Shown: in pieces, positions 19,567 through 55,168 of the stretch
Position numbering within the stretch: position 1 is the first letter of the stretch
Layout of the letters: the number at the start of each line of letters is the position of its first letter
Origin: Agarophyton chilense
Lineage: Eukaryota > Rhodophyta > Florideophyceae > Gracilariales > Gracilariaceae
Direction of reading: 5' to 3'
DNA: 64,000 nt
Assembly (NCBI GenBank): GCA_030374765.1
Contig: JARGXX010000010.1
Coordinates: 186,001 to 250,000, forward strand
Notes under the pieces: model-generated
Told to the model about the DNA's origin: nothing
Databases searched by the model: none
The model's input: only the letters and a program-made list of their open reading frames with translations
Translations under genes and position numbers: made by a program

Positions 19567-21215
19567 ATGAATCCTTTTTTGGATAACAACAATCAAGTTC
19601 CTTATGGTGTTCTGAGCAATGCGGGATCACAATATCACAGTGGTTTCCTATCAGCTCCGCTCCCTCAGAGGACTTCGCAACCTTGCGCGAACAACTTCGT
19701 CGACGCTTCCGTGTGGAACTAGCCTCGAGCGATGCTGGTCTCAGCGAATGAATCCGGTTCGATATCGCGCGAGTCTCTAATTGTGCGAGATCCTCTTCAG
19801 GACAATTTCCTCTTTTCCAGAGCCCCTTGGTTCCATCCCACTATGGTTCTCAACGATCAGTTGATCGACTCCTATGTGGAGGATGAGTACCTTCCGGGTG
19901 AACTTCCGGTTCAAATTGTCCGTTCCTTCGATTGGAGGAACAGCATCGCAGTTGACTCTAGTACGCTTTTATGCAGGAGAAATAAAAGTCCCGATGATGC
20001 AAGGTCCGCTATGGTGCGCCTGGCCTATCAAGGACTTAACCGTACCTTCGGTGACTCTCCTGTACCGTTTGAGTACAACTTTGATGTGATTTTCTACCGA
20101 ACCCGCGCTGAAATATCCTATAGGGATAACCTAGCTGTCTATCCGGAAACGGAGTACCATGGTCCTGGTGTTCACAAGCTTTCTCCACACATGACGTGTT
20201 GGAACAGACCGATTCTCCGAGCGGAATTTCGATATGTATCGAGACAATCTCAGAGATCCTTTTGCCAGATGATCCGCTTCGAGCGGAAATCTCGTTCTCG
20301 ATTTGGTTGTTTCGCACCGTATCCGAACTTTGAGGTTGAACGCCTCCATCCGCGGTTTCTTCGAGGGAACTACGTACCCTTTCCCAGATGGTGGAATCAG
20401 GTCGAAGTACCCCGTGGGGGTTTCGCAGAACTTCCTCCGTGTCTTACACACATAGGTTCAAGATTGTTAGCCGATGAGCACTTGGGATACTGGAACTTGG
20501 TCCTGGCCGAATGGGCAATCCGCTTTGCGGCATTCATTCTTTAGGAGTCCTATGATGAGAACCGATTGTGGTATCTTCCGATGGCTCTTCGGTCAACAAT
20601 TCGAGCACTTAATCTCTACCCAGCGTTGGGCTCTGACGAGAATTGTTGTGAAACTCACTACTTACTGAGTGTCATCGTCAGTGTCGATTGGGATATTGAC
20701 CCTCCTTCGAACCACGCTCGCCGAAAAGCCTCTCCGTGTGATCGGTCTCCGTACGCCGGCATCGAGGTGCCGGTGATTTTGTGTACTAGGACCCATGGTA
20801 AGGTGTGGTTACGACCGCTGCCCATACCGGGGTGTTGCGCCAACTTTCTTGGGGCATCCCAGCAGGATATCCAACTGGATTTGTATTCTCTGACACTGCA
20901 CCGGTTACCATCGATACGGATGTTCTAGACGTGGATAAAGAGGATGCTGTCGCCGCTGGAAGGACTGTTCCTATAGAAGTAGCCAGTCCGAGTGGCAATA
21001 GAGATTCTCCAGTGGATTGGAATTTTACGACGCTCGCACCGAGTCCGGTTGATCCGCAAGTTGCGGCAATGCGCTTTCATCTTCAATCCATCGGTGTGGA
21101 AGTCCCTCTCAACATAGTTGGTAAGGAAGAGCTCCTAGCCCTTGCGGCTAAGAGCTATCAACCAAATGCTGGTGCCTCCAAAATTGGTGGGGCTGGGAAT
21201 TCGACTGGGGCGTAG
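19567..21215 (+). pseudogene. Antisense accessory ORF of chromovirus A
   Basis: Starts MNPFLDNNNQ about 210 bases inside the 3' LTR and runs opposite to gag-pol for about 549 codons, ending about 80 bases from the pol 3' end (convergent). It is broken by TAG at 19720-19722, TAG after AAFIL at 20542-20544, and a frame change near 20805. Residues 1-85 are Asn/Ser/Pro-rich. The conserved part begins APWFHPT (residue 86) and contains IRFERKSRSRFG, ELPPCLTHIGSRLL, LGYWNLVLAEWAI, ALNLYPALGSDE, VSVDWD and a C-terminal DPQVAAMRFHLQSIGVEV block. Each block has a counterpart in the B and C copies (33589-35272, 43443-44898). No known domain, zinc site, signal peptide or transmembrane span is recognised. 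Position between pol and LTR is where other elements carry env or extra ORFs, but the strand is reversed. Confidence 0.75.
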
Positions 21216-21292
21216 TTTTCCCAAAGAGAGATAAACTCATCTCCATCTAGTGGATAGTTAACTTGAGAAGTTGTAAAAATCATCTTGTCATA

Positions 21293-24200
21293 CTAACTTC
21301 TGTGCTTGTCGACTTCTTCGACTTCATTACCGTTTCGGTTTACCCATCTTGGGTACAATCGAAGTTTGGAGGTAACGATGTACCGGTTCTTCGTTGATAG
21401 GATATAATCGTGGACCTCGGTAGGTGTGCAACAGGTTCCCAAGTTTCCTCGGCAGGACTGTATCCAAACGATCGGATTTGATAACGGTAGTCTCCAGTGG
21501 GAGTGATTTCGTGACAAACAACGTGATCCACAACGAACTCCTGTGGGTACACCTTGGGTGTTTACGTCCACATGACGTATTCTGATATGGAGATCCTTTG
21601 TAGGACTCATAAGAGTTTAGGAGAGACCCTCAAGTGAGGGGTTCAAACTTCGGAACGTGTTCGGATCACTCGCGACTTCGACGAGAACAGTGGTGACGGA
21701 GTAATTGTAACTTTCGCTATAAGCTACCAAGTTGATCACCTTCTGGTTCTTCGTGAAGCTCTCGTAAATTCGAGTTAATCCAGAATAGGTTCGCGGAAAT
21801 TGGACTTCAAACCGATGAGCGACGTGTTCCACAAAACAGCGGAATGCCGTTTGCGATTGACAAATTCGTCATAGCGGCGAATATCGTGCTTCATACTCCC
21901 TTTGCAGGGTGGTGGAACACCCAGAGGGTTATAGCCCCACTCATTGGCTTGGCATACACATGCGTCGTGCCATGGAACTGTGTATCAGCGAGGTTGTAAA
22001 GTACAGTACCATTCAGAGTATTTTCTCTGCACTGTGAAGTCAGAGATCCGTTTGGTGACGGTTTTTGGCTAACGCTTGTGTGGAATAACGTCTCGACGTG
22101 GTACTGTGCAGTGCACCGTAGTTTCGCATCGTTATTCTGTACAGTACATGTGATCTCTTCTCTGCAGCAGTACCAACCTGGTTCGATTCATGAACTTCCT
22201 TCATCTTTCTTCGCAATGGCGATCTTCTTCTCTTCTACGCGTCTGCGTTTCGCTTATCCTTCTTCTCGGGATCATCGGACATCCAAGCATCCGTATCGAA
22301 TGTTACTACTTTTACCGTCTACGTTTCCTTGCGTTTATGACGGCGCTCGTACATTCCCAACGGCAGAATTTTGACCAATGTAGTCTTCTCTTGTACTGGA
22401 GGTAAAGCTTCTGTAGTTATCTTTTCAGGTTTCCGTTCTGGTGCAGATTTTCCATCTATGAAGTGGTCAGTCATTGCCAACTTTCGAGTACTAGAATCTC
22501 CATCAGTGAGACTCCCGTGAATCGCCGGACAATTATTTGTAACACCTTCTTCTGCAGCCCGCCCCTTCTTAGGCGGGTTCACGGTGTCATGATTACCTGA
22601 GTAGGTGGGGTCAGCCTAAAGACAATTGTCGGGGTTATCCGAGATCCTTTCGTTGAGGTAGAAGAACCTGTCCTGGTAATTTCAGAACGTTTCGGTAGAT
22701 CAGACACGCCGCGGGCTATGTGCGGGAGAATCTCTGGTCGCGAGAGGCGAACTGTCAGTTAAGGATTGCCCATTACCGGGGAAGGTAGTAGGTTTTAGTA
22801 CGACTTCCATTGTTTACGGTGGGGCTCTGGTGACTCTATCAAGAGAAAACCGTTCGTGCTGTTGGTCAACTTCCAATACCACTGTGGTCTCATCGATTGA
22901 GATGACTCGATAAGGTCCGTCAGCAATCGGAGAAAGCTTTTGCAGCGTTTCCTATTCAGGATTGTAGTATGCCTTACGTACGGATACGAAATCGTAAAAC
23001 GCTATCAGAGGTAGAGGCTTGCGGATTCGATCATTGAAATTACGCTTATACGGGGCTTGGGCATTGTCCATTGCTTTCTGGGCAATTAGCACCATTGTTT
23101 TCAGCCATTCCTTCCGGGATTCCCCATATAACTTCGGTGAGGGGAACGCGAAGAGCTTTGGTTGAGTCTGAATAGCCACTGGTGGTGGGGTGCGTGATAA
23201 CACCAACTCAAATGGTGACAGTGAAGTAACCCGATGCACATGGGTGTTATACGCGTACGTTACCGCATCGGTGTACAAATCCAATTGCTTGGGGTGATCA
23301 GCGACATGGGATAGTAACGTATTCAGCAAGGTACGGTTAAACCGTTCTACCTGACCATTCGTTTGAGGATGGTAGGTTGCAGTAAACAGGTTCTTAATTT
23401 CGAGTATTCGACACAATTCTTGAAAGAACTTTGACGTAAACTATGAGCCATTATCTGATATCAGATGTACGGGTGGACCGCAGACGAAGATCCAGTGAGT
23501 TCCAAAGGCCTGTGCCACAGTATAAGCTGTAATCTGTTTAAGCGGTTCTGTCCCGACGAGCTTGGAAAAGCCGTCTGTCATCACCAATAGATATTGATTT
23601 CCTCGAGGGATCCTGATTAGTTCACCTAAAAAGTCGATAGCCACGAAATCCAAGGGCGCCCGAGCGAGAAATAGCTTCAACTTCTTCGAGTGTTTACGTA
23701 ACTTCAAGTCGTTTTTCGCGCTTTTTGTACAGGAACTGCGTACTGCATAACAGTCAAAAGCCATACTAGGCCAGTAGAAATCCCTTCTAAGGGTCAAGTA
23801 CAATTTTCTTCCTCCATGATAGGAACTCAACCTCGAGTAGTGTGAAAGATGGAGTACCCTTTGCTGTAAGGAATGGAGAACCACAAGTTGTGGATTAAAT
23901 TCGACATTTCGAGCCAGATATCCCTGGAAATCTGTCACAAAGGGAATTGTTGCTCCTCCATTGAGGGCAGAACGGATCTGTGTACACAAAGGATCCATTT
24001 GTTGCTCTCGGATCATCTCCTCAGGAGTTATTGGTTCGAATGAACCCGTCAGGGGCTCCGAAGGTTCGGCATCCAGTATATCGTCACACACGTCATCCGA
24101 TGTAATTTCGGCGCTGCCATAAGCTTCTCCTACTTCAAAGCAGGGAATCTCGAGATCGTCGATAGGTTCTGTCGCCGTAGAGGTTTCCAAGCGGGATAAT

Positions 24201-25550
24201 TCATTTGCTTGCGTGTTCAGAGTACCCTTCTTGTAAAGAATATCGAAGTTAAACTCCACCAATCGGAGGCGCCAACGCATGAGGCGTCCCGATGGTTCGG
24301 TTATTTCCAGAAGCCAACGGAGGGCTGAATGGTCAGTGTTTACCTTGAAGTGGTTACACATAAGATTTGTTCGGAGCGTTGCGAGTTCCCAAACGACGTC
24401 GAGACACTCTTTCTCTGATATCGAGTAATTACGTTCATGAACGTTCAGAATGCGGGACCAGTATCCTATTGGATGTCGCTTACCTTCGGTAGAGGTCTGA
24501 AATAGCGCACAACCGACTTGGTCTTTGCTCGCATCCGTATCAACTTCAAACGGAAGCCCAAGGATTGGAAGCGCTAATATTGGTGGAAACGTCACAGCTT
24601 CCACAAGGGAATTGAAAGTGGATGCTTGTGTGTCTCCAAATGGTTCCAGTTCAAATGGTCTTCCTTTTCGAAGGAGCCCATTTACAGGAGTCGCAACATC
24701 GGCGAAGTTCGGAACAAACCTGCGATACACATTACACAGGCCGAGAAATGATCGGAGTTCCGTTTGATTGGTCGGATATTTTGCTTTCTTCAAGGACTTG
24801 AATCGAACGTCATCGGTTGATAGCCGTCCGGGTCGGATTATATGTCCGAGGTATTTGACCAAATCGGTAAAGAACTTACAATTCTTCAGCATCAATGTGA
24901 TTCCTGCGTCTCGCAGTGTCCTTATAACATCCTTAACATGAGAGAGGTGCTCGTCAATGTTGTCGGAGAATACGATGATATCGTCCAAATATACCAAAGA
25001 TGTTTTCCACTTAAAGCGGGCTAGTTGGATATCTATCGCACCTTGAAACGTTGCAGGGGCATTCGTTAAGCCAACGGCATTCGGTTGAACCGATACAAGC
25101 CTTGATGGCAGACAAATGCCGTTTTATCATGGTCCTTCTTTCGAACAGGAACTTTCCAATAACCCCAATTCGAATCAAGGGCGGTGAACACAGTCGCGTT
25201 TCCAAACGAATCGATATAATCATCCATCCAAGAAATCGGGTATACCTCTTCCACTGTAACCGCATTCAAGCGTCGATAATCAATATAAAATCGCCACGAT
25301 CCATCGGCTTTCGGAGCTGAGACAACACGTGACGCCCAAGGCGATTGTATTGGTTCTATAACGCCTGTGCGTAACACCTTCTCAACCGGAGTCTGCTCTT
25401 CTTGCCGAGCCTTCGGTCCAGGCCTGTAAGGGTGCTGAGCAATCGGCCGAGTATTCGGAAGCAAGTCAATACGGTTTTCCGTGATTCCTATTGTTCCAAG
25501 GGAATCATACCACATAGGGGTAAATTCCTTCAGCATTTCTCTTAGATTCT
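21293..25550 (-). pseudogene. Pol of chromovirus A: RT, RNase H, integrase, chromodomain (broken)
   Basis: Read from 25550 leftward. RT starts EMLKEFTPMWYDSLG, then VFTALDSNWGYWKVPV (catalytic Asp present), a frameshift near 25000-25066, then VYLDDIIVFSD (intact active site) and LRSFLGLCNVYRRFVPNF. RNase H shows VDTDASKDQVGCALF, YSISEKECL and VNTDHSALRWLL. Integrase has VAIDFLGEL, HLISDNGS and HPQTNGQVERFNRT (catalytic D, D, E). TAG at 23441-23443 falls directly after SDNGS. A linker of decayed frame (21553-22951) leads to a chromodomain at 21340-21552 (TWEPVAHLPRSTIISYQRR). The chromodomain marks this as a chromovirus, which guides integration by reading chromatin. Enzyme motifs are better kept than in B and C. 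The upstream end is cut by element B. Confidence 0.92.
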
Positions 25551-26168
25551 TGTAGTATTCTGCTCTGTCGGAATAACGATGGAAGATTTTTTTGGCTAAG
25601 TATGATGATACTCATAAGTGAGTTAAACGGCTAGGATGAAGCTATGAAGCTTCACCCTGCAGATGGTCCATGAGGTGGTTTGTTATATGTGGGACCTCGG
25701 TCTACCACGGCGCATCCGATTCGACCCTTTGCAGGGAAATACCGGTTTGGCAACGGTACATATACTGTAGTGGGTAGCCACGTGGCAACCATTATCCCGT
25801 ACTGTAGAGGGGTTTATTTTCGAACTAAGTTTATATCTAGATATTATTATATGCGGCGCTCATCCCTGTCCACAGTACATAAGGCACAGAAGGGAGCCCC
25901 GACTCCAAAGTAAAGGAGACAACAAACGGGTTCAAAAATCACTTGTTCCTTGTTTAGTAATCCTTAACTAGAGATCCAGACAAGCTACAACAAATAGTTG
26001 TCCGTTCAATAGTACCAACCACCCTCATTGGCGAGTGGGGCCGTACAACCCCTATTCTAGCTCGCTAGTGTCGTGCTATATCACACCTTCCCCTTAGCCG
26101 CAAGCACCCATTTGGCAGTCCCAGACACTGTTGCAGGTGTCTGTTCTCTCCGTAGAGCGGATAATACA
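25551..26168 (+). repeat. 5' LTR of element B
   Basis: Begins TGTAGTATTCTGC and ends GCGGATAATACA; the outer 8 bases form an inverted repeat. Aligns throughout with 45022-45641, with frequent single-base differences, and with the C LTRs at lower similarity. Confidence 0.93.
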
Positions 26169-26170
26169 AG

Positions 26171-26188
26171 TGGTCTCCCGACTTAGAA
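26171..26188 (+). other. Primer binding site of element B
   Basis: TGGTCTCCCGACTTAGAA begins two bases after the LTR end. TGG is the complement of a tRNA CCA tail. The same site with one difference follows the C LTR at 41797-41814. Which tRNA is used cannot be told from this window. Confidence 0.65.
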
Positions 26189-26383
26189 ACACTGTGGTTA
26201 ACTACTCCAAATACTTCGCACCTGGAACGTGGAATTGATACTGATATTGAAATGGAATGAAACACGATCTCCTGAACGGTTTCCAAACACGTCCAGCTAT
26301 TACGGAGTTCCGTAGTTAACTACGCTGTCGTATTTAATTGAAGAACTCAATTATTTCGTCGCCGAACATTGGATTTTTTCCAA

Positions 26384-28640: not shown

Positions 28641-28864
28641 TGAGGGAACCCCTTGGGGGTCGGCCCTATTCCATCTCATAGAGCAGACCAGGAAGTACTC
28701 GCCTCATTGTTCCCGCGCTTGGAGACCCAAGGTCCTGATGAGGACTCATCATATTCCGTCGAGCGGATGTAATCCGTCCGTTGGAAAGCGAGTACAGTTT
28801 GACTGTGAACCCATACGTCCTGGGAGACGTTATACTTGTGCATCGAAATGGGAAATCTTTATTA

Positions 28865-29808
28865 TGATATTGCAGAAGTGGAACTATAAATATTATGCTG
28901 ACATCGGCTCGGAAAAGGATTTATTGACCCGGCGCCTGACAGTTCTTGATACAGGCGCCAGACCGAACTTTTTTCGAATATCCGAACTAGGATCCACCGA
29001 TCAGAATCGAATTCGTTACGGTCCGTTGCCGGGTATCCGAGATGATAATAGGAATGCATTGAGAACACTTGGAACAGTGAAGTTTGTCGTTCGACTCAGA
29101 CACTTTTTAGTGAAGGTGAATTTTATTGTCTGCAAGTCACTGGCGGCACCAGTTGTTCTAGGATTTGATTATTTTGACAGATTTGTCGAAGCAAACCGCC
29201 CTCGGAGTCGAATAATTACGTTAGACGATGGCTCGACAGTGCATATAGTGAGAAGACCACTTTGAAGAGGCCCTACAGCTGCTGCACTTCCACCCTCAAT
29301 GTAATACGAGTTGGCTCGTGGTTTTACATCACCAAAGAATCGTGAGTCGAAACCTACATTTTTAAAGGCTCAATTCCAAACCTGGGTACAAGTGATAACA
29401 AAATGACACGGTCTCGTGGTAATCCAGCCTAACGCTGCAATTTATGAGCATCGAGGACTTCTCGCAGCGAATGGAGTTGTTTATGTTGAACTGGGCAAAC
29501 CCTTCCGAATACTCATTAGTAACTGTACCGATATTGAATATCATTTACCGAAGAATCTGATCGTTGCAGCCGCTCTGCCGCACCCAATAGCAGTAGTCCC
29601 GACTCATATCTCTACCGCAGAAGTGCTACGGTTGACTGATGTGTCAGACGAATCAACTGGCGCACATGAAGGTCCCAGAGAGCAGTCGCACCCGATAGAA
29701 GAACAGAAGGACCCAGACAAGCAGGTTGAAGATCTAGTTCTCGGGAATTTTCGCGAAGGGTGTAAAGAAAGAATCAAACAATTGTTTAAAAAGAATGCCT
29801 CTATGTGA
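28865..29808 (+). pseudogene. Aspartic protease region of chromovirus B (broken)
   Basis: Matches the C protease ORF along its length: YKYYADIGSEKDLLTRR then LTVLDTGARPNFFRISEL, with the D-T-G active site present, GFDYFDRFVEANRPR, and after a TGA at 29263-29265 and decayed frame, EHRGLLAANGVVYVEL and PTHISTAEVLRLTDV. The frame ends in TGA at 29806-29808, directly before the RT segment and at the same codon as the TGA that ends the C protease ORF. Retropepsin would cut the polyprotein. The protein is split by stops and unlikely to work. Confidence 0.85.
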
Positions 29809-31140
29809 AAGTGGAAAACTATGAGAGATCTCCGCCACAGAACATCATATTGATGTTACTCCGGGATCTGGCCCCATTTCTCAGCCACCTCACACAGCAG
29901 GACCGCGAACTCGTCAGATCTAGAAGGAAAATGTTGCCAAGATGCTCGAAGCAGGAGTAATAGAAGCAGCACAATCTGCTTGGGCTTCACCTGTGGTGGT
30001 AGTCCCAAAACCTGATGGTTCTTTACGATTATGTGTCGACTACCGGAAACTCAACGCAATTTCGATACAGAATACCTATCCACTGCCTCGCATGGACGAG
30101 TTTATAGACAGATTCGATGCGAACGTGTTCACCACGCTTGGCGCCAACACTGGCTTTTGGCAGATTCCTGTTGCCAAAAAAGATCAGGATTAGACTTCAT
30201 TTGTGTCACACGCTGGACAATACCGTTTCAAGCGGATGACTTTTGGACTCACCAATGCTCCGACAACTTTCCAGCGCGCCCTGGACATATTACTCTCGAA
30301 GTACAAATGGAAATTATGTCTAGTCTACTTGGACGGCTTCATCATCTTCTATCAAGATATGGAGAGTCATATGCGACATGTGGAGGAGATCGTCAATGCG
30401 GTACAGACAGCAGGTATAACCTTGAAGCTCAAGAAATGCGAATGGTTCGGTAATACTGTGAAGTATTTGGGCCAAATAATTAGGCCTTGTCAGCTTGCAA
30501 TTCATGAAGCTCAGACAGCGGCAGTCCGCGAATCGCAACCACCGTCCACACAGACTCAATCTCAATTGCGATCCTTTCTTGGATTATGTAACGTCTACAG
30601 ACAATTCATACCGCGCTACTCGCATATTGCAGCTCCATTGAACGCATTGTTGATTAAAGGACAGCCTGTTGAGCTCGAGGAATTCGAGCCCGCCGAACAC
30701 GAAGCCTTCAAGACTTTGAAGACAAAACTGGTCACAGCACCAATCTTGGCATTGCCCAAACTCAACCTACCCTATTCTTTGGATACCGATTCCAGTGTGT
30801 ATCAGGTAGGGTTTGCCCTTTTTCAGTCCCATCCGGACGGTCAGAGGAAACCAATCGGATACTTACCACGAACGCTGAACGCTGCAGAGAAGAATTACTC
30901 CTTATCGTAAAAGGAATGCCTTGCAGTAGTGTGGGCGCTGACTACTTTACGACCCTATCTCCAGGGAGAAACGTTTACCATCTATACGGATCATTCGTCT
31001 CTACGATGGATATTTTCAATAACAGACCCCTTCGGGAGATTAACACGTTGGCGCTGAAGCCTATCTGAATTCGATTTCGATGTTAAATATAAGAAGGGAC
31101 TGACTAACATACAAGCCGACGCTTTATCGCGATTGGAAAC
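29809..31140 (+). pseudogene. RT and RNase H of chromovirus B, catalytic residues lost
   Basis: RT fingers and palm: ASPVVVVPKPDGSLRLCVDY, MDEFIDRFDANVFTTLGANT, TAG after KKDQD, then MTFGLTNAPTTFQRAL and LVYLDGFIIFYQD. The first catalytic Asp position reads Gly (TLGAN where relatives have LDAN), and the second motif reads YLDG instead of YLDD, so the enzyme is dead by two substitutions besides the stop. Then LRSFLGLCNVYRQFIPRYSH, RNase H with LDTDSSVYQVGFALF, a TAA after KNYSLS, ECLAVVWALTTLRPYL and IYTDHSSLRWIF. The RNase H ends in ADALSRLETLGETQGEI. Same family as C. Confidence 0.9.
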
Positions 31141-32754: not shown

Positions 32755-33420
32755 TGTAGTATCCGCGCTAACGGAGAGAGCAGACACCTGCGATAGCGTT
32801 TGGACTGACAATGTGTTGCTTGCGGCGAAGGAAAAGGGGTGGTAGAGCTACAACACCAGCGAGCTGGAAGTAGGGTGTAAGGCCACTACTCGCCAGCGAG
32901 GATGAACAGTGCAACTGTAAAACGTTGACGGAACGTAGGTACGAGACAGCTCGTGAAGTGGTTTGGGGCTGACTATGTATTATAGCTCGTCCGGATTTCC
33001 GGTTAAGGAATCCTAAGCGATGAACATAATAGTCATGATACCCATGTTGTCTCCTTTACTTGGAGTCGGCGCTCACCTCTGGTACACTATATACTGTGTG
33101 CCAAGGTGACTGCCCAAATAATACGTAAATAATACCCAGTGGGCAGCCACTTAGCCAAACCTCTGTATGGGTACGGTCCCTAATGGACGTGTAGCTACAA
33201 AGGGTATTAAAACCAGCCACGTGGATCGCCACTACATGCGCAGTTGCAAGCCACTCCACTCGTGATACCACGTGTTCCAACAATGTACCCTGCCTCCTGG
33301 CATCCTGCGCGATGTGCCGTTTCATAGCACAAGTTTGATGACATCACTCACTTATGAGTTCCAACCACGACTTCGCGAAAAACCAACATATCGGATTCCC
33401 CGACATAGTAGAATACTAAA
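32755..33420 (-). repeat. 3' LTR of element C
   Basis: In plus orientation it runs TGTAGTATCCGC to GAATACTAAA (the last TG/CA base is mutated, ACA to AAA). Aligns end to end with 41817-42481. Confidence 0.95.
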
Positions 33421-33432
33421 TACCCCCCTCGT
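33421..33432 (-). other. Polypurine tract of element C
   Basis: On minus, AACGAGGGGGGTA precedes the 3' LTR. Compare AACGGGGGGGATG before the B 3' LTR. Confidence 0.7.
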
Positions 33433-33588
33433 TAAGCGCGAACCATGAGGGACGCAATAAGAGTTTATACGCAGTCGGACCGGTGTTCCGGGTACTCATC
33501 TTCATCACAAAATCCTCGCCGCCCGATCAACTCTTACAGTTTTCAACAGCATTCTGTTCCTCACCGCTCTTCAGCTCGATCTCTCGCG

Positions 33589-35272
33589 ATGGATCCGAAC
33601 GCCGGGTCCAACCCGTTTCAGCCCTCCCCTGAGGATGTGCCTTCTGGGGCTCCGTCCAACACTGCTGGTTATGCGTCGTAGCCTACTGCTCAACTCGGTC
33701 CATACCGTTCGTTCCCCACACCGTACAGCAGATTCCGGTCGGTACCGTTATGTCAGCCAACCGTGGCTCCGATGCCGAACGCGGCTTACGTCGCCTCTGC
33801 GGGTGTAAATCGAGCTCCTTCTCGTCGTGCTCAGCGGAGCTACTTACACCCTGCGGATTTCTATGGACGAGATACTCTCGACAACGTTGAACTTTTCGCG
33901 CAAGCGCCCTGGTTTGCTCCAGTTGCAATCCGCGATGACGCGTTGATACAACAGTATGTACACGGTGGGTACTTCCCTGACGGTATTCCAGAACACGCGA
34001 TTCATAGCGACGACTGGGCGAGCCATATTGCTTTGCCAGACAACGCCATTGCGCGATATTCAACGGAAACCTTGTCCGAAGCCCGTACGCGGTTCACTAA
34101 GCTGATTTACCAGCGTCTTCACCGATTCATCAGTACGGTTCTCCTCCCGCAGGATTGGGAACTAGATATCTGGAAAGCCCGTACCGACGGTGAAAGTTAC
34201 TCGTATATCTAGACACTCGTTGAAGTCGATGTTAGCGGTTGGCGCGGTGTGCGCGGTGTGCGTGATGCAAGCCCTCTGCTTTCAGCAACCTCTTCTCTGT
34301 GCGAAGTTCCGCTTCCTTCGAAAGCGTGACATTCCCTATTGGGATTATTCCCGTTGGGAACGTCGTACTCGATCACGTTTGGGCTATTTGGTGCCGTATC
34401 AAATGGTCGAGATTAACGGCATCCGGCGGAACGCGCGCTTCGGGCGCTACATCGGTATTCCAGAGCATTGAGCGGCGATCGAGAGTCCTCGTGGTTGCCC
34501 TGTGGAGCTTCCACCGGCTATCTCCTACGTCGGGTCCGCGTTGGTCAACGATCCATTCTCGGGATATTGGACGGTGGTTTATACCGAGTTTATCGCCGAG
34601 ATGGCCGTCTTCCTCCTGTGGGATGCTTATGATACGTTTAGAGTTTGGTACATGTCGCCCACAGCACGAAAGTATGCGAGAGAACTCGATCTTTCCCTTG
34701 TCCTGGGATCCCGTGCGAACCATGCCGACTTCCTCCTTCTTGTGGATGTAATCATCAGTGTCGACTGGTCTGGAGTGCCAGCTGAATAATCCGCTTGCGG
34801 AACCTGTGCAAGACTCTACGACCATTCTCCTGGACGAACAGCAAGTGCTGGAGATTTCGTTTGGTACGACCCCTGGACGCGCCAGTTGATCACCTCCGAG
34901 CAGGTTCGCTTTCTTCGGGAGAACCCGCGTGAAATGCCACCGAACCAGCTTACTGGATACGTGTACGATGGTACTCCATCCGAGAACGGAGAGGAACCGT
35001 ATGAGGAAGCGCCGGGAGCTGAGGCTGAACTCGGTTACGAGGACGAGCCAGAGCTGGCAGGCGTAGCGACTTCCGTCGATCAATCCGCAGCGGCGGGAGT
35101 TGCTCAAGAGTAATCGCATGGGTATACCCGACAACGGAGTGAAGTGCCGTTCGAAGATCCAGGCTTGGATCCGCTGAGGCAGTTCCTCTTAGATGCGGGC
35201 TTTCCCGTGGACCAAGTTGAGGGTGGTCGGGGACAGCTTCTTGCGAACCTGAGTGCTCGCACGTCTCTTTGA
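33589..35272 (+). pseudogene. Antisense accessory ORF of chromovirus C
   Basis: Starts MDPNAGSNPFQPSPED about 170 bases inside the 3' LTR, runs opposite to gag-pol and ends at TGA 35270-35272, about 300 bases from the convergent pol end; about 560 codons. Breaks: TAG after NTAGYAS (33679-33681), a frame change near 34200, TGA after GIPEH near 34470, TAA after SGVPAE near 34788, TAA after GVAQE at 35111-35113. Ser/Pro-rich first 105 residues, then AQAPWFAP, RRTRSRLGYLVPYQMVEI, ELPPAISYVGSALVNDPF, GYWTVVYTEF, RVWYMSPTARKYAREL, LSLVLGSRANHADFLLLVD, ISVDWSGVP, an acidic stretch (YEEAPGAEAELGYEDEPEL) and DPLRQFLLDAGFP. Closest to the B copy. No known domain. Confidence 0.78.
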
Positions 35273-35339
35273 TGTTTTTTGAAAAGACTCCTAGTCAACA
35301 CCCTTGCGGTGCTATCTTGATACCAATAAAACTCCGGTG

Positions 35340-35560: not shown

Positions 35561-35573
35561 TTGTAGCCCATAC

Positions 35574-37019
35574 TTAGGAATAGGATGTGCCCATGAGCCC
35601 GACTATCGAGGAGTCGATCTCCCGGGAGATTGGTAATCGCATGCGTCGATGATATCGCACGAGTTGCGAACGGGTGATATGAGCTATAGGTTCCCACGTA
35701 TCCGCTTCCGGAGGAAAACCGTACCAACGGACTCGATACAGAAATTCTCTAGTATCTTCATGCTCGCCATGTTCACATATGCGATCCATAACATATTCCT
35801 GGGCGTTTCCCAATGCTTTCGCTGTTGGCGCAAGACTCCTGTTAACAGGTTTGAAATGCCTTAGGGCTGACCCAAGGTTCTCTGTGTTAGCAGTCTCAGC
35901 GTCGCTAAGCGTTTGCTCGTCGACTAACTGTCGTTCTGCCCGCAGGGGCAGTGTACTCATTCCTTGATAACCTTTATCAGATAAAGAGCTATCCTGTTTT
36001 CCAGGTTCCATAAAAGCGTACTTCTTGCTACTTCTCAATTCCATTCGTGGATGAACTTCCTTCGGTTTATCCGATTCTGACCGCTGTTCGGTGGACGATG
36101 GTGCTTGCACCACGACAGGAGGCGATACCTCTTCTTCGTCCTGCCCACGAGGGATGGGAGCCGATATCGGCGGAACAGCAAGTGGCGCTTCACCTGACGG
36201 TTCAGCCTGAAGCGGCAACGGCGCGTTTTCGAGTGCACTCGTTTCCAAGTCTTTGGGGCCAAAGGCCAAAACATCTTTCCTGCTTTCAGGTTCCATTTCT
36301 GTACTTACGGGTGTGCGCGTGCCACGGGGCATATCCCGATACTTCGAGAAGCGGTCGGTGATTACCAATAGGTAGCGATAACCTCGCCTTGAGCGAATCA
36401 ATTTTCCTAGGATGTCGAATCTGACGTATTGTAAAGGCGCTTTCGCCTGGAATAACGTCATCGGTTTCCGCTTCCTGTAAAGCTTCACGCGATTCTTTGC
36501 ACATGTTGTACACAACCTCACTGTAGCATGGCAGTCCATTGTCAAAGTAGGCCAGTACAAATCTCTTCTTAGAGTCATGAACAAATTAGTTCCTCCTGGA
36601 TAACCAGACCGCCTGCTGTAGTGTGCCAGATGGAGTACTTCACTCTTCGAGACGTGTGGAATCACGATTTGATCATGATTCTCTACATGTTTTAACAGTA
36701 TTCCTCGTGAATCGAGTGAAAAGGGGAGCTCCTCCCCCCCGTTAAGACAAGAGCGTATCGACGAACAAAACGCATCGGCTTGTTGCTCATTGAGGAGCTC
36801 AGTGCACGAGATTCGCTCGAGTTGAACTGAAGGGTCAGTGTCTGCTAATGCAAGGAACGGGTCTGCATCCGAATAATCATCAAGGGTCTCTTGTTTCTTT
36901 TCTTCAAAAGATGGTGAATGGGTCTCCATGTAGAAGCAAGGTATCTCTTCATCGATTTCGCCTTGGGTTTCGCCCAGTGTTTTGAGTCGCGATAGCGCGT
37001 CAGCTTGGAAATTGGCCAA
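35574..37019 (-). pseudogene. Integrase-chromodomain ORF of C with deleted catalytic core
   Basis: 481-residue open frame on minus. It begins in the RNase H tail (ADALSRLKTLGETQGEI), has the integrase zinc region (LRRDLYWPTLTMDCHAT, RLCTTCAKN, but GYPGG replaces the second His), then the first core motif FDILGKLIRSRRGYRYLLV. After VITDRFSK (near 36345) it jumps to YRDMPRGTRTP and the C-terminal tail; B has about 1 kb here, including the SDNG and NGHVERYN motifs. The jump keeps the frame. The tail is Pro/Glu-rich and ends in a chromodomain (REFLYRVRWYGFPPEADTW, EPIAHITRSQLVRYHRR). Integrase activity is therefore impossible; such a copy could only be mobilised by another element's enzyme. Confidence 0.9.
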
Positions 37020-38286
37020 TCCCTTTTTCTACTTCACTTCGAAATCGAAATCAGAAAGGCGTAAGCGCCATCGTGTGAGACGACCAGAGGGGTCTGTAAT
37101 GGACAGTAACCATCGTAGAGACGAATGATCCGTGTTGACGGTAAAACGTTTTCCTTGGAGATACGGTCGCAATGTGGTTAGAGCCCAAACGACTGCAAGG
37201 CATTCCTTTTCTGAAACTGATTACATCTTCTCAGCTGCGTTCAGCGATCTTGACCAGTAACCAATGGGTTTGCGTTCACCATCAGGGTGTGTTTGAAAAA
37301 GGGCACACCCTACTTGGTACTCGCTAGAGTCGGTATCCACTGAGTATGGCAGGTTGGGGATGGCCAAGACTGGGGCTGTAATAATCTTTGTCTTCAGCGT
37401 GTCGAACGCTTCCACTTCAGCTTGTCTGAATTGTTCCAGCTGTACTGGTTGTCCTTTACGCAGCTTTGCGTTGAGCGGTGCCGCTATATGCGAGTATCGC
37501 GGCACGAATTGTCGGTAGACGTTGCAAAAGCCGAGGAAAGAACGCAATTGCTTCTGTGTCGACGGAGGTTTTACTTCGCGAAGAGCCGCTGTTTGTGCCT
37601 CTTGAATGACAAGCTGTCCCGGCTTGATCACATGTCCTAAGTACCGGATGGTGCCAGCAAACCAATCGCATTTCTTGAACTTCAGGTGATACCTGCGCTC
37701 TGTAGTGCTTTGAGAATCTTCTCGACATGCCGTAAATGGCTTTCCACATCCTGGGAAAAGATGATCACATTTTCCAAATAGACTAAACAAGTCTTCTACT
37801 TGTATCTTGAGAGCAAGATGTCCAGAGTACGCTGGTAAGTAGCCGGTGCATTCGTTAAGCCGAAAGGCATCCTTTTAAAACGGTAGAGATCGGCGTGACA
37901 CGCAAATGCGGTTTTATCTTGGTCTTCTTCTGCTACGGGCACCTGCCAATAGCCAGAGTTGGCGTCCAACGTGCTTCTCCTAAGCTGTCAATACATTCGT
38001 CCATTCGAGGCAACGGGTATGTATCTCGAACTGTAACTGCGTTCAGTTTTCGATAATCGATACAGAATCGTAAAGAACCATCAGGTTTTGGGACCAGCAC
38101 CACTGATGAGGCCCAAGCAGTTTGAGCTGCTTCGATTACTCCTTCTTCCAGCATTTTGCTGACATTCTCCTCCTCGATTTGGCGAGTTCACGGTCCCGCT
38201 CTGTAGGGTGGTTGGGAGATGGGTCGTGACCCTGGGACCAAATCAATGTGGTGTTCCGTAGCGGAGATCTCTCCTAGTTTTCCACT
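37020..38286 (-). pseudogene. RT and RNase H of chromovirus C (broken)
   Basis: Directly follows the protease in the same frame after TGA at 38287-38289. ISATEHHIDLVPGSRPI, a second TGA at 38188-38190, KMLEEGVIEAAQTAWASS, VPKPDGSLRFCIDYRKL, then a frameshift near 37940. The catalytic motif near 37785 reads LVYLENVIIFSQD where relatives have YLDD, so both Asp are lost. Then YLGHVIKPGQLVIQEAQ, LRSFLGFCNVYRQFVPRYSH, RNase H VDTDSSEYQVGCALF and YWSRSLNAAEKM before a stop at 37221-37223, and LTTLRPYLQGK further left. Confidence 0.88.
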
Positions 38287-39222
38287 TCACATGGATGTAT
38301 ACTTCTTCAGTATAGACCTGATCTTCGTTCTGTAGTGTTCCGACACATGTGCTAAGTCTAGCTCATCGACCAGGCTCTCTGGATCCTTTGCCGTTTGAAA
38401 TTGATCTCCAGACGGAGTTTGCAGTTCTTCGTCTGTGTCACCGACATGGGTTAATCCCAATACTTCTGCAGTAGAAATATGAGTAGGGACCACCACTGTG
38501 GGATGAGGCAAAGCTGTTGCAACAACCTGATTCTTCGGTATCTGATAATCGTTATCGGTGAAGTTACTCACTAGTATCCAAAAGGGGCTACCAGGATCAA
38601 CCTGAACAATGCCGTTAGCGACTAGCAATCCACGGGATTCGTACATCCGAGTATTCGGTTGAAATACCACGAGTCCGTGTCGTTCTGTTCTTACTTGAAC
38701 CCAAGTTTGGGTTTGCGCCTTCAGCATGGCACTCTTCGCTACTCGAATCCTCGGCGAGACACGTCCTTGGGATTTCCCGTATTCCATAGATGGTGAAAGT
38801 GGAGGTGCTTCAGTGCAACGACGCACTGGCTTGCGAACAATTGGTACCATTGATCCATCATCTAGTTCCACTAGTTTTCTTCGCGGGCGAATGGCTTCGA
38901 CAAGCTTGTCGCAATAATCAAATCCCAGTACCACTGGTGCAGCTAACTTCTTACAGACTATGAAGTCAACTAGGACTGCAAAGCGTCCCGAACGCACCAC
39001 GAGTCGAACTGTTCCCAGTGTTTCCACAGCATTTTTGTTGGCATCCCGGATGTCCGGTAAAGCACCGTATCGAATACGTTCTAAGTCAGCAGGAGCGAGC
39101 TCCGATTGCCGTATAAAGTTCGGACCAGCACCTGTGTCGAGGATAGTCAATCGACGAGATAACAGATTCCTGTCAGAGCCGATGTCGGCATAGGCCTTAT
39201 AGTTTCTTGTAGACACTACCAT
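38287..39222 (-). CDS. Aspartic protease ORF of chromovirus C
   Basis: 311-residue open frame with ATG at 39222 (MVVSTRNYKAYADIGSDRN). Retropepsin-like: LTILDTGAGPNFIRQSEL carries the D-T-G active site; VLVDFIVCKKLAAPVVLGFDY is the hydrophobic second half ending in the usual flap-distal G-F-D. Then a basic-acidic linker and PTHISTAEVLGLTHV, SEHYRTKIRSILKKYTSM. It ends in TGA 38287-38289, with RT following in the same frame. In element A the corresponding place reads PMW, so TGA replaces a Trp codon, and B has TGA at the same point. The protein would process Gag and Pol. It is the only long intact enzyme frame left in C and may persist by chance, since C as a whole is decayed. Confidence 0.8.
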   Translation of the reverse strand: MVVSTRNYKAYADIGSDRNLLSRRLTILDTGAGPNFIRQSELAPADLERIRYGALPDIRDANKNAVETLGTVRLVVRSGRFAVLVDFIVCKKLAAPVVLGFDYCDKLVEAIRPRRKLVELDDGSMVPIVRKPVRRCTEAPPLSPSMEYGKSQGRVSPRIRVAKSAMLKAQTQTWVQVRTERHGLVVFQPNTRMYESRGLLVANGIVQVDPGSPFWILVSNFTDNDYQIPKNQVVATALPHPTVVVPTHISTAEVLGLTHVGDTDEELQTPSGDQFQTAKDPESLVDELDLAHVSEHYRTKIRSILKKYTSM

Positions 39223-39620
39223 GAGGTAACTTTCCCGTTTTGACGGACAAGTATAACGTCCCCAAGGACGATGTCACTCACAGTCAAACTGTACTCGCTT
39301 TCCGTCCGGCGGATTGATTCCGTACGGCGGAACTTTGGCAGGCCTCAAGAGAATCTTGGTCTTCCAAGCGCGGGAGCAGGGAGGCGAGCTCTCCCTGGTC
39401 AGCACGACGGGATCGACTAGTGCCGACCCCCTAGGGGCTCCCTCACTTAGTTTTCCGGTTGCACCGGCTTATTCGCCTCAAAGGCGCCTCTTCCTACCGG
39501 AGTTCCGGGTTGTAACACTTCAGAATTTTGAGCAACTGGCTTGTCCGTCCGGCGCATTGGTGTCTGAGAAGACCAACTTTTGGCTTTCCAATACATGCCC
39601 GCCGGTACGCGGCTCTTTTC
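39223..39620 (-). other. Element C, gag-protease interval
   Basis: About 400 bases between the gag stop and the protease ATG, holding only broken continuation of the polyprotein. The matching B interval is about 28640-28865. No separate feature seen. Confidence 0.5.
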
Positions 39621-41601
39621 CTATTCTGAGAGTGCTTCATAATTCGTCATGATACGACTCAGATCCTTTGCAGGAAGCGTGCATTCTGCACTCAAATGGT
39701 GTTTTCCATAACATGAATAACATATCAAACCGTAACGACGGTTGGTCAACATAAATTGTGAACGGTATGCCGTGCGAGTATTCACCCATCCGGGTTTCCC
39801 GTTCTTAAAACCTCCTTGTGGTGGCACCGTGTAGGGACAGTAAATAGGGCGACGGCCCTCCATAGCCATTAGGGCTTCCTCGTCCTGAGACTCCGATTGT
39901 GGAAGATCCACTGTAGGTACAGAAGAGTCCGTATACTTCACTAAATGGACCGCCTCCTCATGCGAGTCACTCCCTTTGGGTGCCAAAGACGAATCTCGTG
40001 AGTGCACTGGAGATTCCAGGTGTAGCAGTTTGCTGCGCTCATTAACACTGGCGGAGATCTTCTCCTTACCCATTAAGGTTCCAAAAGCCACTAAACGACG
40101 GGAGCTACCACGCGCTCTGGCCGCGTCTCCTTCAGCTTTCGCAAACTGAACTAACTCCAAAAAGGAGACTCTTACATGCTTCTCTCGATATTGAGCTACC
40201 AACCACTTGATGCTCGGGTCCAGCCCGTCGATGTACAAGGTAATCTTGTCTTCCATCGAGTGGACGTTTCCACAGCGGACTGAAGCTTTGTGAAGCCTTG
40301 AGCTGTACTCAGCTTCGCCCTCCTCAGGCTTTTGTGTCACATCCCTTAGGTCCAGGATCGCCTGACGTATCGCGTTTGAAGTCGCGTAACTGCCCAGCAA
40401 ATACTGCACCGCCTCTGGCCATGAGGTAACGCCGCCTTCATCGGCTGTCAATGATCCGCATACGGAACGATATTTCTCTAAAGCAAAAACCCTTCAGGAA
40501 GTGTGGTAAAGACACAAATGCCTGTGGTTCACTCATCTCTAGAGTGTCTGCTTCGGCAACGAATCGAGTGAGAAACTCGATAACGAGAATGGCGGTCTTC
40601 CCATCAAATGTTAAATCATTAAGGCCGATCTTCAATCGTTTGATGTGATCCTTCACCTTCGCGGTTTCGCGTCCTGAGCGCTTCTTGCTCTTTACCTTCA
40701 GACGGTAGTACCTTTAATTCAGGACCTTCCGATAAAGCGGATTCGTCCACGGAAGCACCTTCATTCCTCTGTAAGGTGAGCCTTTTTTTCTCATTAACCA
40801 CGAAGACGTGTTCTTTTTCCGGGATCGGGACCTTCGATGACCATCATCACTGTCGTCGTCATCTGACGTATCTTAATCATCAGAATCATCAGTACTGGAA
40901 CTGAAACCCTCCGTACATGACGATTCATCACTCGAATCACGTGCGGACTTCCGCTTCTTACGTCGTGACTTCGACTTCTTCGAACGAGCTTCCTCCAAAG
41001 GAGCTCCTTCGTCTTCCAGCACGACTGGTTTAGCAGCAGTCTGCGCATGAACTGCCGCCTCCAGGCGTTCTAAACGAGGGTTAACTCGAGTGAGGACTTC
41101 CTCTACATCCACGGTTAAGCCGGGTAGCGCATCGGGCGTATTCCTGTACCTCTCCAGTAGATGGTTCAAATCCTCACGTAGTGTTTTTACTGATGCAGAG
41201 ACCTGCTTCCCATCGTCTTGACGAACGAGTGCTTGATGCGCTCTTCGTAATTATTCGACATCAGCGATAAGAGCAGCGATCTGAGATTCCAACGCAACCA
41301 TGCGCACACGCGAAGCCCTTGACTCAGACTTGAGACGACGCACTTCCCTGCGCAAATCATCCTCTTCTTGAGGTCCGCCGACCTCAGGGTCAACTACGGC
41401 TTCTGTGGTGGGCGTGACTGCCGCTGCCACAGGGGCCGGTACATCCGAGGGATCTCGTTTATCATTCACCGAGCGTGAGCGCGACATCGCTTGACGATAC
41501 AGCCGCTCTCCGGCTTCAAAAGATGAGGCGAGCCTCGGTTTCGGGGGTGGTCCCGCAGGACCGGGGCGACCAGTACTCGACTGGTTTCGTGTCTTCGGCA
41601 T
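39621..41601 (-). pseudogene. Gag of chromovirus C (broken)
   Basis: Starts MPKTRNQSSTGRPGPAG at 41601. First part 1-117 (coiled-coil-like LRREVRRLKSESRASRVRM) ends at TAA 41251-41253; then KTLREDLNHLLERYRNT, a basic block (KKSKSRRKKRKS) and an acidic Ser/Asp stretch, a stop at 40873-40875, a frameshifted KVKDHIKRLKIGLNDLTFDG to FLTRFVAEADTLEMSEPQA block, and finally a 276-residue frame (39621-40451) with SWPEAVQYLLGSYATSNAI, FLELVQFAKAEGDAARARG and a CCHC zinc knuckle, CYSCYGKHHLSAEC. The zinc knuckle is intact (C-x2-C-x4-H-x4-C). Nucleocapsid and capsid functions inferred from position. Confidence 0.88.
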
Positions 41602-41796
41602 CCTAGACCAAACCTGAGTCCAGGTGCGAACCAAATGGTGTCTTCGACTTCTCGACCACGTGTTCAACGACGATTGATTCCGCAATTGCCGGAGGTGGTT
41701 CGATAAACAATAACTGTAGTGGTTCCACTTCTTCCAAGTATCGATATCGATTCCACGTTCCAGGAACGAAGTGTTCAGTGCAGCTGACCACAGTGG

Positions 41797-41814
41797 TTCT
41801 AAGTCAGGAGACCA
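41797..41814 (-). other. Primer binding site of element C
   Basis: On minus, TGGTCTCCTGACTTAGAA starts two bases after the 5' LTR end (ACTACA). One difference from the B site. Confidence 0.65.
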
Positions 41815-41816
41815 CT

Positions 41817-42481
41817 TGTAGTATCCGCTCTAACGGAGAGAGCAGACACCTGCGACATCGTTCGGACTGCCGATGGGTCGCTTGCGGCGATGCAAGAGGG
41901 GTGGTAGAGCTACAACACCAGCGAGCTGGAAGTGGGGTGTAAGGCCACTACTCGCCAGCGAGGGTGAACAGTGCAACTGTAAAACGTTGATGGAACGTAG
42001 GTACCAGACGGCTCGTGAATTGGTTGGGGGCTGACTATCTATTATAGCTCGTCCGGATCTCAGGTTAAGGAATCCTAAGCGAGGAACAGAATAGTCATGA
42101 TTCCCATGTTGTCTCATTTACTTAGAGTCGGCGCTCACCTCTGGTACACTATACACTGTGTACCAGGGTGAGTGACCAAATAAATATATAAATGACACCC
42201 AGTGGTCCGCCATTTAGCCAAACCACTGTATGGGTAAGGTCCCTAATGGACTTACATCTCCAAAGGGTAGTAAAACCAGCCACGTGGATCGCCACTACGT
42301 GCGCCGTTGCAAGCCACTCCACTCGTGATACCAAGTGCTCCAACAATGTACCCTGCCTCCTGGCATCCTACGCGGTGTGTCGCTTCCTATCGTAGCACTG
42401 ACCAGGCCACTCAGTAATGAGTTCCAAACGCGACTTTGTGACAAAGAAACCATCGGAACGCCGAAGTAGTAGAATACTACA
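41817..42481 (-). repeat. 5' LTR of element C
   Basis: In plus orientation TGTAGTATCCGC to GAATACTACA, 665 bases. Flanked on the right by TTTGG, the second copy of the target site. Confidence 0.95.
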
Positions 42482-43191
42482 TTTGGTCCAAGTAGATCCG
42501 GTCCAGAAGCTGCTGCACACACGCCAGTCCCTGTTCAGGTTGAACCTTCAGGTGAAACGCCACTCGCTGAGCGATCGCGCTTGGCAGCCGACCCAAGAGA
42601 AGAACGCGAAGATGAATCTAAACCTCCATTAGTTGTGGATGCAGCTCCGGCCGAACCTTTGGTGAGGAAGCCTAGTTTGGCTAAAGACCCTAAGAAGGAG
42701 AGAAAGAACAAGCAACGTGAGGAAAAATGGGTAACAGTAGACCCAACGACTATGCAGTCAGAAGCCGAGAACGGCGCTCCGGTGGCACAAAAAGGCTCTC
42801 AGCTGCCCGAACAGACTACGCAGGTTCAACCTGAAGATATAGGGAGTTCCCAAGCGCTCTTTCAGGTGGTCCGGATTCAACGCATTCGTTTGTCGGATGG
42901 TATAAGACGGTGAGCCGAAACCTCGCTCTAACAGCCGAAATGATGGGAAATGCCCAGGAATACGTCAGGGATCGCATCATCGATCACGGCGAAGACGAAG
43001 ACACCCACAGACTACTGTATTGTATCCGTTGGTACGGTTTTCCTCCGGAAGCGGATACGTTGGAGCCTATAACCCATCTCCCGCGCTCGCAGATTGTGCG
43101 TTATCATCGGCGCAGTCGACTACTACTCCCTGCAGAGATCGACACCGCGATGATGGGCTTTCTAGACGCGATTTCGCAGAGCGACAGCTAA
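42482..43191 (+). pseudogene. C-terminal integrase tail and chromodomain of element B
   Basis: Resumes the B pol frame after element C: FGPSRSGPE, VPVQVEPSGETPLAE (C has LPLQAEPSGEAPLAV), a Lys/Glu-rich linker, then a frame change near 42900 and SRNLALTAEMMGNAQEYVRD, LLYCIRWYGFPPEADT, EPITHLPRSQIVRYHRR, a chromodomain closely similar to that of C. One tryptophan of the usual D-T-W-E-P motif reads Leu (DTLEP). Ends TAA at 43189-43191. In chromoviruses this module binds histone marks and steers integration. Confidence 0.9.
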
Positions 43192-43207
43192 TCCCCTTTC
43201 CCTTCCG

Positions 43208-43399
43208 AAGAAGGATGTGAGAGAAGAAGACGAGAAGAAGAAGAGAAGAAGAAGAAGTACTCGGGGAAACGTGCAGGCCCGGAAACAGAAGAATTTGGTT
43301 TATTAGAAGGATATGAGAAAAGAAGACGAGAAGAATCTAAAAGAAGAAGAAATACTTATTGAAACGTGAAGTCACGGAGACAGAAGAATTTGGTTTATG
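43208..43399. repeat. Two purine-rich tandem copies (period 96) between pol and antisense ORF of B
   Basis: GAAGGAT-R-TGAGA-R-AAGAAGACGAGAAGAA at 43210 recurs at 43306; GAAACGTG at 43265 recurs at 43361; CAGAAGAATTTGGTTTA ends both copies. Polypurine on the pol strand. Lies exactly in the gap between the two convergent ORFs. Confidence 0.8.
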
Positions 43400-43442
43400 T
43401 TATGGCCTCAAGGGTGTTAACGAGATCTAGCGATCAATTTAC

Positions 43443-44898
43443 TTACCCACGGGTATGATTATTCAACATTGCGGTAAGATCAACACGATTGCCTTGCCGC
43501 TGTGTTTCGGGGAAACCCGCGTCTAAGAGGAATTTTCTCAAAAGTTCCAAAAAGGGATCCGCCTCATCGTTCGGGTGTTGGGCAAACCCATGATGGTATC
43601 CCATCACCGGGGTGACGCCCGATGTCGTAGCCGTTGGGGGCGAAGCAGCCGTCACAGGCGCAGTACCGGATAGTTCGGGTTCATCCTCGAAATCGAGTTC
43701 TGCATCAGCCCCTGGAGCTTCTTCATATTCCTGATCTGCAAACTCAGAAGGTGTGGACTCGTACACATATCCAGTACGCTGATTTGAAGGGCACTCCCTA
43801 GGATTCGCACGAAGGTCACGAGCCTGATCAGACGTGATTATCTGGCTGGTTCAGGGATTGTACCATACAAAATCTCCAGCATTAGCTTTGCGTCCCGGCG
43901 AATGATCTCGATGGCGCACCCTTGTGCCTCTAGCTGATTGCTCCAATGGAACCCCATGCCAGTCGATACCGTCGATCAAGTCTACCAAGAGTAGGAATTC
44001 GTCATAATTGGCACGGGAACCCAACACAAGGGAAAGACCGAGTGGTCTCGCATATCTCCGCGCTGTTGGCGACATGTACCAAACCTGATAGGTATCGTAT
44101 GCATCCCAGAGGAAATACGGTGCAATCTTGGCAATGAAATCGGGGAAGAGAACCGTCCAGTATCCCGAGAACGGGTCGTTGATCAACGCGGAACCGATAT
44201 AGGTTATGGCAGGAGGAAGCTCCACCGGACATCCAAAAGGGCTCTCGACCTCAACCCAATGTTCTGGCAGCGCGAAATAGCCTCCAACGCGAGCATTCCG
44301 CCTAATTGGATCAATCTCGATCATTTTGTATGGAACCAGGTACCCCATGCGGGATCTCGTATGTCATTCCCAACGAGGACTATCCCAATGAGGAATGTCT
44401 CTCTTGTGGAGGAAGTGGAAGTCCGCACGGAGCTAGGGCCAGCGAACGCAGAGTGCTGCGTTGCGTACATCGCGTAAACCGCGCCATTCGTCAATGTCGA
44501 CTTCTTATAAGGACTCGATGTACGACTATCCTTCGCCAATCGTGCGAGCCATCCAGGGATCCAGATTCCAATCTCCAGTGAGAACGACCGTGCTAATGAG
44601 CCGGTGCAGATGCTGGTATATCAGCTTGGTGAACCGGGTTCGGGCTTCGTCCATACTTTCGTTGAGTCCACCAAGACGGCGCTCGAATGATCCCAGCGAA
44701 GGATAGAGAAGCCGTGTTCAATATCATACGGGAAGCCAAAGGCTGTAAGGGCAAAGATTGGAAACAACCCACGCGAAGGGACCGCATTGATCGGAAGTCC
44801 GAAGGCGCCGCAGCTTGCGAATCGAAGCCACTGCTGGCGTAAGGACCCTCGGAGGGTACGTCTCCGTTGTTGGAGTTGTGCGGCGCATATGGGTTCAT
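43443..44898 (-). pseudogene. Antisense accessory ORF of chromovirus B
   Basis: Starts MNPYAPHNSNNGDVPSEG at 44898, 124 bases inside the 3' LTR, and runs opposite to gag-pol; about 485 codons. Frame changes lie near 44800 and again near 44350; then MGYLVPYKMIEIDPIRRN, ELPPAITYIGSALINDPF, GYWTVLFPDF, QVWYMSPTARRYARPL, LSLVLGSRANYDEFLLLVD, a stop after GDFVWYNP (43851-43853), an acidic EYEEAPGADAELDFEDEPEL and DPFLELLRKFLLDAGFPET to a TAA. Block for block it follows the C copy at high similarity and the A copy at low similarity. No hydrophobic span or known motif; the acidic tail and the final amphipathic helix are common features. It converges on the chromodomain end at 43191. Confidence 0.78.
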
Positions 44899-55105: not shown

Positions 55106-55168
55106 ACCTGCTTCGCAAACAAACAAACAAAAGAAACTTAGAAACGTTAAACGCGAAAAAGTAATTAC

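Follow-up and report, generated by a model that had tools for sequence, protein, structure and literature searches.

A probable antisense gene under protein-level selection in chromodomain-bearing Ty3/gypsy elements of the red alga Agarophyton chilense

Ty3/gypsy elements with chromodomains in the red alga Agarophyton chilense carry, between the chromodomain and the 3′ LTR and on the strand opposite to gag-pol, a reading frame (here termed aORF) which is very probably a protein-coding antisense gene maintained by selection. The arrangement itself is known, whereas the protein family and the host group are apparently new. The explanation that we judge best as a whole, and on balance a probable one, is that of a selected antisense accessory gene with a soluble regulatory product.

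The window, i.e. the whole 64,000-nucleotide stretch of DNA that was analysed, corresponds to bases 186001-250000 of contig C10, and the genome searched alongside it comprises 79.8 Mb in 135 contigs. Three decayed Ty3/gypsy elements with chromodomains lie nested in it: A contains B and B contains C, an order read from the LTR coordinates. By their pol pieces and chromodomains, A and C are minus-strand elements and B is a plus-strand element; all three copies are old, since the LTRs of each pair are only 87-89% identical. The initial annotation had called them chromoviruses, and of this label the chromodomain part holds for A, B and C. The features are given below, where D denotes a further lineage of the aORF family.

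18549-19361, minus strand: 3′ LTR of element A (88.8% identical to its partner at 48283-49106)
48283-49106, minus strand: 5′ LTR of element A
25551-26168, plus strand: 5′ LTR of element B (87.1% identical to its partner at 45022-45641)
45022-45641, plus strand: 3′ LTR of element B
32755-33421, minus strand: 3′ LTR of element C (87.3% identical to its partner at 41817-42482)
41817-42482, minus strand: 5′ LTR of element C
23441-24997, minus strand: pol piece of element A with RT, RNase H, H2C2 and the start of the integrase core (Pfam-type domain scan)
30203-30910, plus strand: pol piece of element B with RT and RNase H
39621-40451, minus strand: gag piece of element C (Retrotrans_gag)
21343-21555, minus strand: chromodomain of element A (tblastn with the D chromodomain frame, E 6.6e-24)
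35598-35801, minus strand: chromodomain of element C, inside a 481-aa frame (35574-37019) with Integrase_H2C2
42955-43158, plus strand: chromodomain of element B (tblastn with the D chromodomain frame)
19567-21215, plus strand: aORF of A, pseudogene (in-frame stops at 19720 and 20542; shift of frame between 20763 and 20802)
33589-35272, plus strand: aORF of C, pseudogene (stops at 33679, 34210, 34469, 34787 and 35111; frame change near 34271-34326)
43443-44898, minus strand: aORF of B, pseudogene (at least five stops; frame change near 44653-44663)
11474-12265, plus strand: copy E, a decayed remnant of this protein's core, of a separate lineage

Outside these features, the window contains a 499-aa unbroken tyrosinase-domain gene (3424-4923), which scores best in the PDB against hemocyanins and tyrosinases, a 456-aa transposase frame of Plant_tran/DDE_4 type (6708-8078) and a younger LTR element (50038-56477). 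The latter has 283-bp LTRs that are 97.5% identical and a 940-aa pol frame in which no chromodomain was matched, preceded by a 587-aa frame without a Pfam match. An LTR-like stretch in plus orientation (10474-10957), which is 77-78% identical to the LTRs of C, adjoins copy E. Elsewhere in the genome, the phycobilisome linker domain PF00427 has 13 matches, one of them on the window’s contig; this linker gives a full-length PDB match to LRC3 of 5y6p (631 bits), with CpcN of 8imn scoring 630 in five pieces and LRC3 of 6kgx scoring 393. Entry 5y6p derives from the florideophyte Griffithsia, and 6kgx derives from Porphyridium. The linkers indicate a red alga, probably a florideophyte. An oomycete host was considered and rejected on account of these linkers, which occur on several contigs, and because the two TIM and two GAPDH genes are spread over four contigs with no TPI-GAPDH fusion, a mark of oomycetes.

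The aORFs of A, B and C, delimited by an M-N/D-P start and the last stop of the common reading frame, all lie in the segment that separates the chromodomain from the 3′ LTR, on the strand opposite to gag-pol, as had been proposed for them. Their start codons stand about 206 nt (A), 168 nt (C) and 124 nt (B) from the edge of the 3′ LTR, and the frames read from there in the direction of the chromodomain; the M-N/D-P start near the LTR was found in each, and the motifs claimed earlier (APWF, R-x-S-R-L/F-G, ELPP, GYW, LGS and D-W) are present in the family alignment. These frames had initially been described as three ORFs of 485-560 codons, a description of which the coordinates and shared frame stand but the open state does not, each containing in-frame stops and a frame change. 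The count of three was likewise right as far as it went, but incomplete, the more decayed relative E (11474-12265) having been overlooked. In tblastn searches, the A aORF matched an open 618-aa copy (locus L036) with an E-value of 1e-110, while the best pieces of C and B matched an open 608-aa copy (locus L067) with E-values of 0 and 5e-164, respectively. The similarity among the window elements and the open copies is far above chance.

Searches of the alga’s own genome returned at least 144 rows with the A piece (142 of 1610 candidates scored), at least 150 with the B piece (150 of 1420) and at least 150 with the E piece (150 of 1211). Five aORF lineages, A to E, were observed and there may be a sixth, the remaining E-query rows at 45-55% identity including a group with frames of 624-667 codons. 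Median amino-acid identity is 62% between B and C, 46% between A and D and 30-33% for the remaining pairs, and the M-N/D-P start is common to A, B, C and D. Open copies were found in lineage D (618 aa in L032, L036 and L037) and lineage C (608 aa in L067), which counted from this start amount to proteins of 575 aa and 560 aa, respectively. The 43 codons that precede M-N-P in L036 (sense 2508-2637) show a synonymous divergence among D copies of 0.16, compared to 0.04 elsewhere, and this roughly fourfold excess favours M-N-P as the true start.

Among the matches listed, the frame reached 618 codons or more, with the matched part free of stops, in 49 of 123 D-like rows, and it reached 600 codons or more in 28 of 84 E-like rows. 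Across 1932 bp, 12 of 18 D copies are free of indels relative to L036. Six D elements have LTRs that lie 10.8-10.9 kb apart and are 97.5-99.5% identical, with the aORF just inside the 3′ LTR. An intact ORF, which the initial annotation had expected of at least some young elements, does exist, but the result is weaker than hoped, with a fully open aORF in one of these six dated D elements and one or two stops or frameshifts in the other five. A separate observation on the D LTRs is that at G000:C75:1331054-1332898 one of them is flanked by the two halves of an opposite-strand D LTR, as if by insertion of LTR into LTR.

The case for selection was built on omega, estimated by NG86 for 40 of 60 loci (9 A, 14 B, 4 C and 13 D; 20 were dropped) from the longest in-frame stretch of each locus, if it had 480 codons or more, with stops masked. 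Between lineages, median omega was 0.135 for B-C (56 pairs), and, with dS near saturation for all other combinations so that their values rest on the computable pairs, 0.184 for A-D (117 pairs), 0.295 for the distant A-B (126 pairs), 0.317 for the likewise distant A-C (36 pairs) and 0.255 for B-D, the last from very few such pairs; C-D was not computable, owing to saturation of synonymous sites. A dN/dS near 1, which had been named at the outset as the result that would speak against selection, was therefore not what was seen between lineages (0.135 to 0.32). Within lineages omega was 0.53-0.73, as expected if most of the differences arose after insertion. The B-C comparison was also set against 200 neutral simulations, in which amino-acid identities of 0.43 and 0.40 were expected versus 0.62 and 0.59 observed, and 17-18 stops were expected versus one and two observed. 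Constraint is strongest at residues 294-393 of the D protein (B-C pN/pS 0.14-0.18) and weak at the ends.

That this signal belongs to the antisense frame was apparent from a six-frame test, in which its pN/pS was the lowest in five of five comparisons (0.33 for B-C and 0.50 for A-D); its count of zero stops there is uninformative, because stops had been masked beforehand. In the mirror sense frame, which shares its third positions with the antisense frame, pN/pS was 0.44-0.73 and there were 6.6-8.0 stop codons per 100; the other four frames gave 0.97-1.74 across the five comparisons. A better-supported protein on the sense strand was sought among these frames and none was found, the mirror sense frame being an echo with about 7-8% stops. 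The suggestion of past selection on a conserved antisense accessory ORF is supported by these results, which place purifying selection between lineages; the ORF itself is older than their divergence.

The association with chromodomains extends beyond the window. In a pairing test that used 292 typed aORF places, an aORF lay downstream and antisense within 4 kb for 30 of the best 150 of 1935 chromodomain candidates, as against a single pairing in the other arrangement, with both on the same strand, and about four pairings of any kind expected by chance. The E query gave seven pairings of this downstream, antisense kind, of which one had been counted before, mainly from rows near 50% identity; the 60% E-like rows had no chromodomain partner among the matches listed. 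The best eight chromodomain loci (L001-L008) had no aORF match within their 1.5-kb flanks, and the two of them that were scanned, L001 and L002, encode integrases with H2C2, SH3_Tf2-1 and a chromodomain. These two are classical chromovirus integrases and represent a separate chromodomain lineage without an aORF within 1.5 kb. An SH3_Tf2-1/GPY-type module was not reported at E 0.01 in the integrase piece of C, the one piece to which this result applies.

Regarding how the gene came to be distributed in this way, B and C share a 4.7-kb gag-pol DNA match at 70%, where A matches neither in the same comparison, and the D chromodomain is 56% identical to that of A and 46-47% identical to those of C and B. 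The grouping of the aORFs is the same as that of pol and the chromodomain, which, as far as so coarse a test can show, fits joint descent of the aORF with pol rather than repeated gain.

The predicted protein is acidic overall (pI 5.2-5.6), with an acidic tract of net charge -9 to -12 near residues 450-500 and low-complexity ends rich in Pro, Ser and Ala. Its core has a patch of the form F/W-E-R-R/K-x-R-S-R/Q-x-G, which A, C, D and E share and of which the B piece shows the part from R-S-R onward. No membrane segment was found in three open copies, the highest 19-residue hydropathy being 1.31, and nothing in the protein was recognisable as a domain for DNA binding, RNA binding or localisation. 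No Pfam match was accepted for the window pieces or the 14 aligned members: PF02817 on the C piece (E 0.026) was taken as chance, as were other weak matches in one or two of the 14 members each (E 0.06 to 0.26). PDB sequences gave no match to the A piece or to the family profile, and of the 46 and 24 pattern stretches in viral and prokaryotic contigs, respectively, none was confirmed as a relative. AlphaFold models of the A piece (273 aa, 7-row alignment; mean pLDDT 34.7) and the B piece (170 aa, 5 rows; 36.7) were unusable.

Antisense genes in this position have precedents, and the plant elements Grande, RIRE2 and Retand, together with fungal brtn, represent the same known arrangement. Excerpts of PMC7264820 and PMC11963269 describe the plant cases, antisense ORFs located after pol and ahead of the 3′ LTR. 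These share with the aORF their place and strand relative to gag-pol, their presence in most copies, their occurrence across diverged elements and their lack of homologs, but belong to another branch of host kingdoms and have no domain that we found in common with it. PF04195 (TRP28) occurs in the antisense ORFs of 97% of Retand clusters according to the excerpted text of PMC11963269. This domain is absent from the matches of 14 of 14 aligned aORF members (E up to 5), and Retand is a non-chromovirus lineage, whereas the aORF elements have a chromodomain. An additional antisense gene (brtn) in a Boty-like Gypsy element was reportedly described by Zhao et al. 2011. In Botrytis cinerea, Boty-like elements carry brtn as an additional antisense gene within a Gypsy element (PMC8365987, in excerpt); the host is a fungus, and the likeness concerns the arrangement as described.

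Two further comparisons bear on the kind of gene and of element. In HTLV, antisense transcription from the 3′ LTR yields the nuclear regulators HBZ/APH-2 (excerpts of PMC11963269 and PMC7264820); these are retroviral and resemble the aORF, which is known here from DNA, in arrangement. The Chronos elements of oomycetes are Ty3/gypsy elements which gained a chromodomain outside the classical chromoviruses, and differ in having an extra aRNH domain and an oomycete rather than red-algal host, with no antisense ORF mentioned in the excerpt of PMC5348765. PF00075, of the aRNH type, was not reported at E 0.01 in the pol piece of element A (23444-24997), the piece to which this result is confined. No red-algal report of such an antisense gene was found in open-licence PMC papers, in searches that were partly oomycete-oriented. 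What is apparently new is thus the protein family and the host group, antisense genes at this place having already been described.

Considering what the protein might do, a regulatory role in the element’s own expression is the leading candidate, though slightly less likely than not, the nuclear and regulatory step being suggested by analogy with HBZ and gene23 of Grande and by the composition of the protein. An antisense transcript would have its start within the 3′ LTR or the leader of 0.12-0.21 kb; its product would be a soluble, probably nuclear accessory protein that may affect the element’s own transcription, the fate of its RNA, or its escape from silencing. Such a protein could act through the conserved core with its arginine-rich patch, which disordered tails and the acidic stretch would flank.

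A special case of this regulatory reading is a factor that blocks or reverses host silencing. VANC counters host silencing for VANDAL DNA transposons, and a comparable role here would agree with the high copy number and diversification of the family (hundreds of rows), while a strongly constrained core with fast-changing ends would suit a factor acting on host machinery. No homology to a known suppressor was seen in Pfam, though, and we consider this narrower form unlikely, if worth keeping in mind.

Less likely again is a structural or packaging partner, viz. an additional protein, Gag-like or packaging nucleic acid, that becomes part of the particle or of the pre-integration complex. The size of the protein, its disordered Pro/Ser/Ala-rich ends and the arginine-rich core patch would fit, and a role of such proteins in the pre-integration complex is raised in the excerpted text of PMC7264820. 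Against it, the aORF has no similarity to the gag piece of C (BLASTP E 0.43; hhalign probability 0.1) or to the 587-aa pre-pol frame of the neighbouring element (hhalign probability 0.2), and no Pfam gag or zinc knuckle was found in the window pieces or 14 aligned members. The core has also been considered as a captured catalytic domain, with G-P-Y, E-L-P, I-G-S, D and G-Y-W invariant; the 14-row alignment has 15 invariant columns, two of them acidic, clustered at residues 301-375, but this invariance is overstated, the rows being close kin and fragments of unequal length, and with no Pfam or PDB sequence match we think an enzyme quite improbable.

It may also be asked whether the antisense RNA is what matters, through dsRNA or interference, with the frame kept open by ancestry or by an overlapping sense codon pattern. 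Antisense transcription may regulate by itself (PMC7264820, in excerpt), and long opposite frames do occur, for instance one of 271 codons on the sense strand of L067 and L064. The third-position enrichment and low pN/pS are nevertheless specific to the antisense frame, and the sense frames contain stops and fail, such that a passenger frame is contradicted as a full account and, as an explanation in general, very improbable; a dual role of RNA and protein is possible. An Env-like protein can practically be dismissed: the location between pol and the 3′ LTR is the usual env-like site, but the strand is wrong and no segment comes near membrane-spanning hydropathy, which contradicts this reading, unless splicing brings in exons that encode membrane segments.

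Time and again, LTR elements bear antisense genes at their 3′ ends. The selected antisense gene reported here means that a feature of land plants and a fungus also occurs in red algae, with an apparently unrelated protein. A single genome offers many lineages, many open copies, protein-level selection and, as a natural contrast, a chromovirus lineage free of the gene, and this contrast makes questions of expression, localisation, silencing and transposition testable. More speculatively, the aORF could be a founding trait of a red-algal clade of chromodomain Ty3/gypsy elements and encode an HBZ-like nuclear regulator or counter-silencing factor, a proposal towards which we lean less than to regulation as such; if true, the strategy of an antisense gene would have arisen here separately from its origins in plants, fungi and deltaretroviruses.
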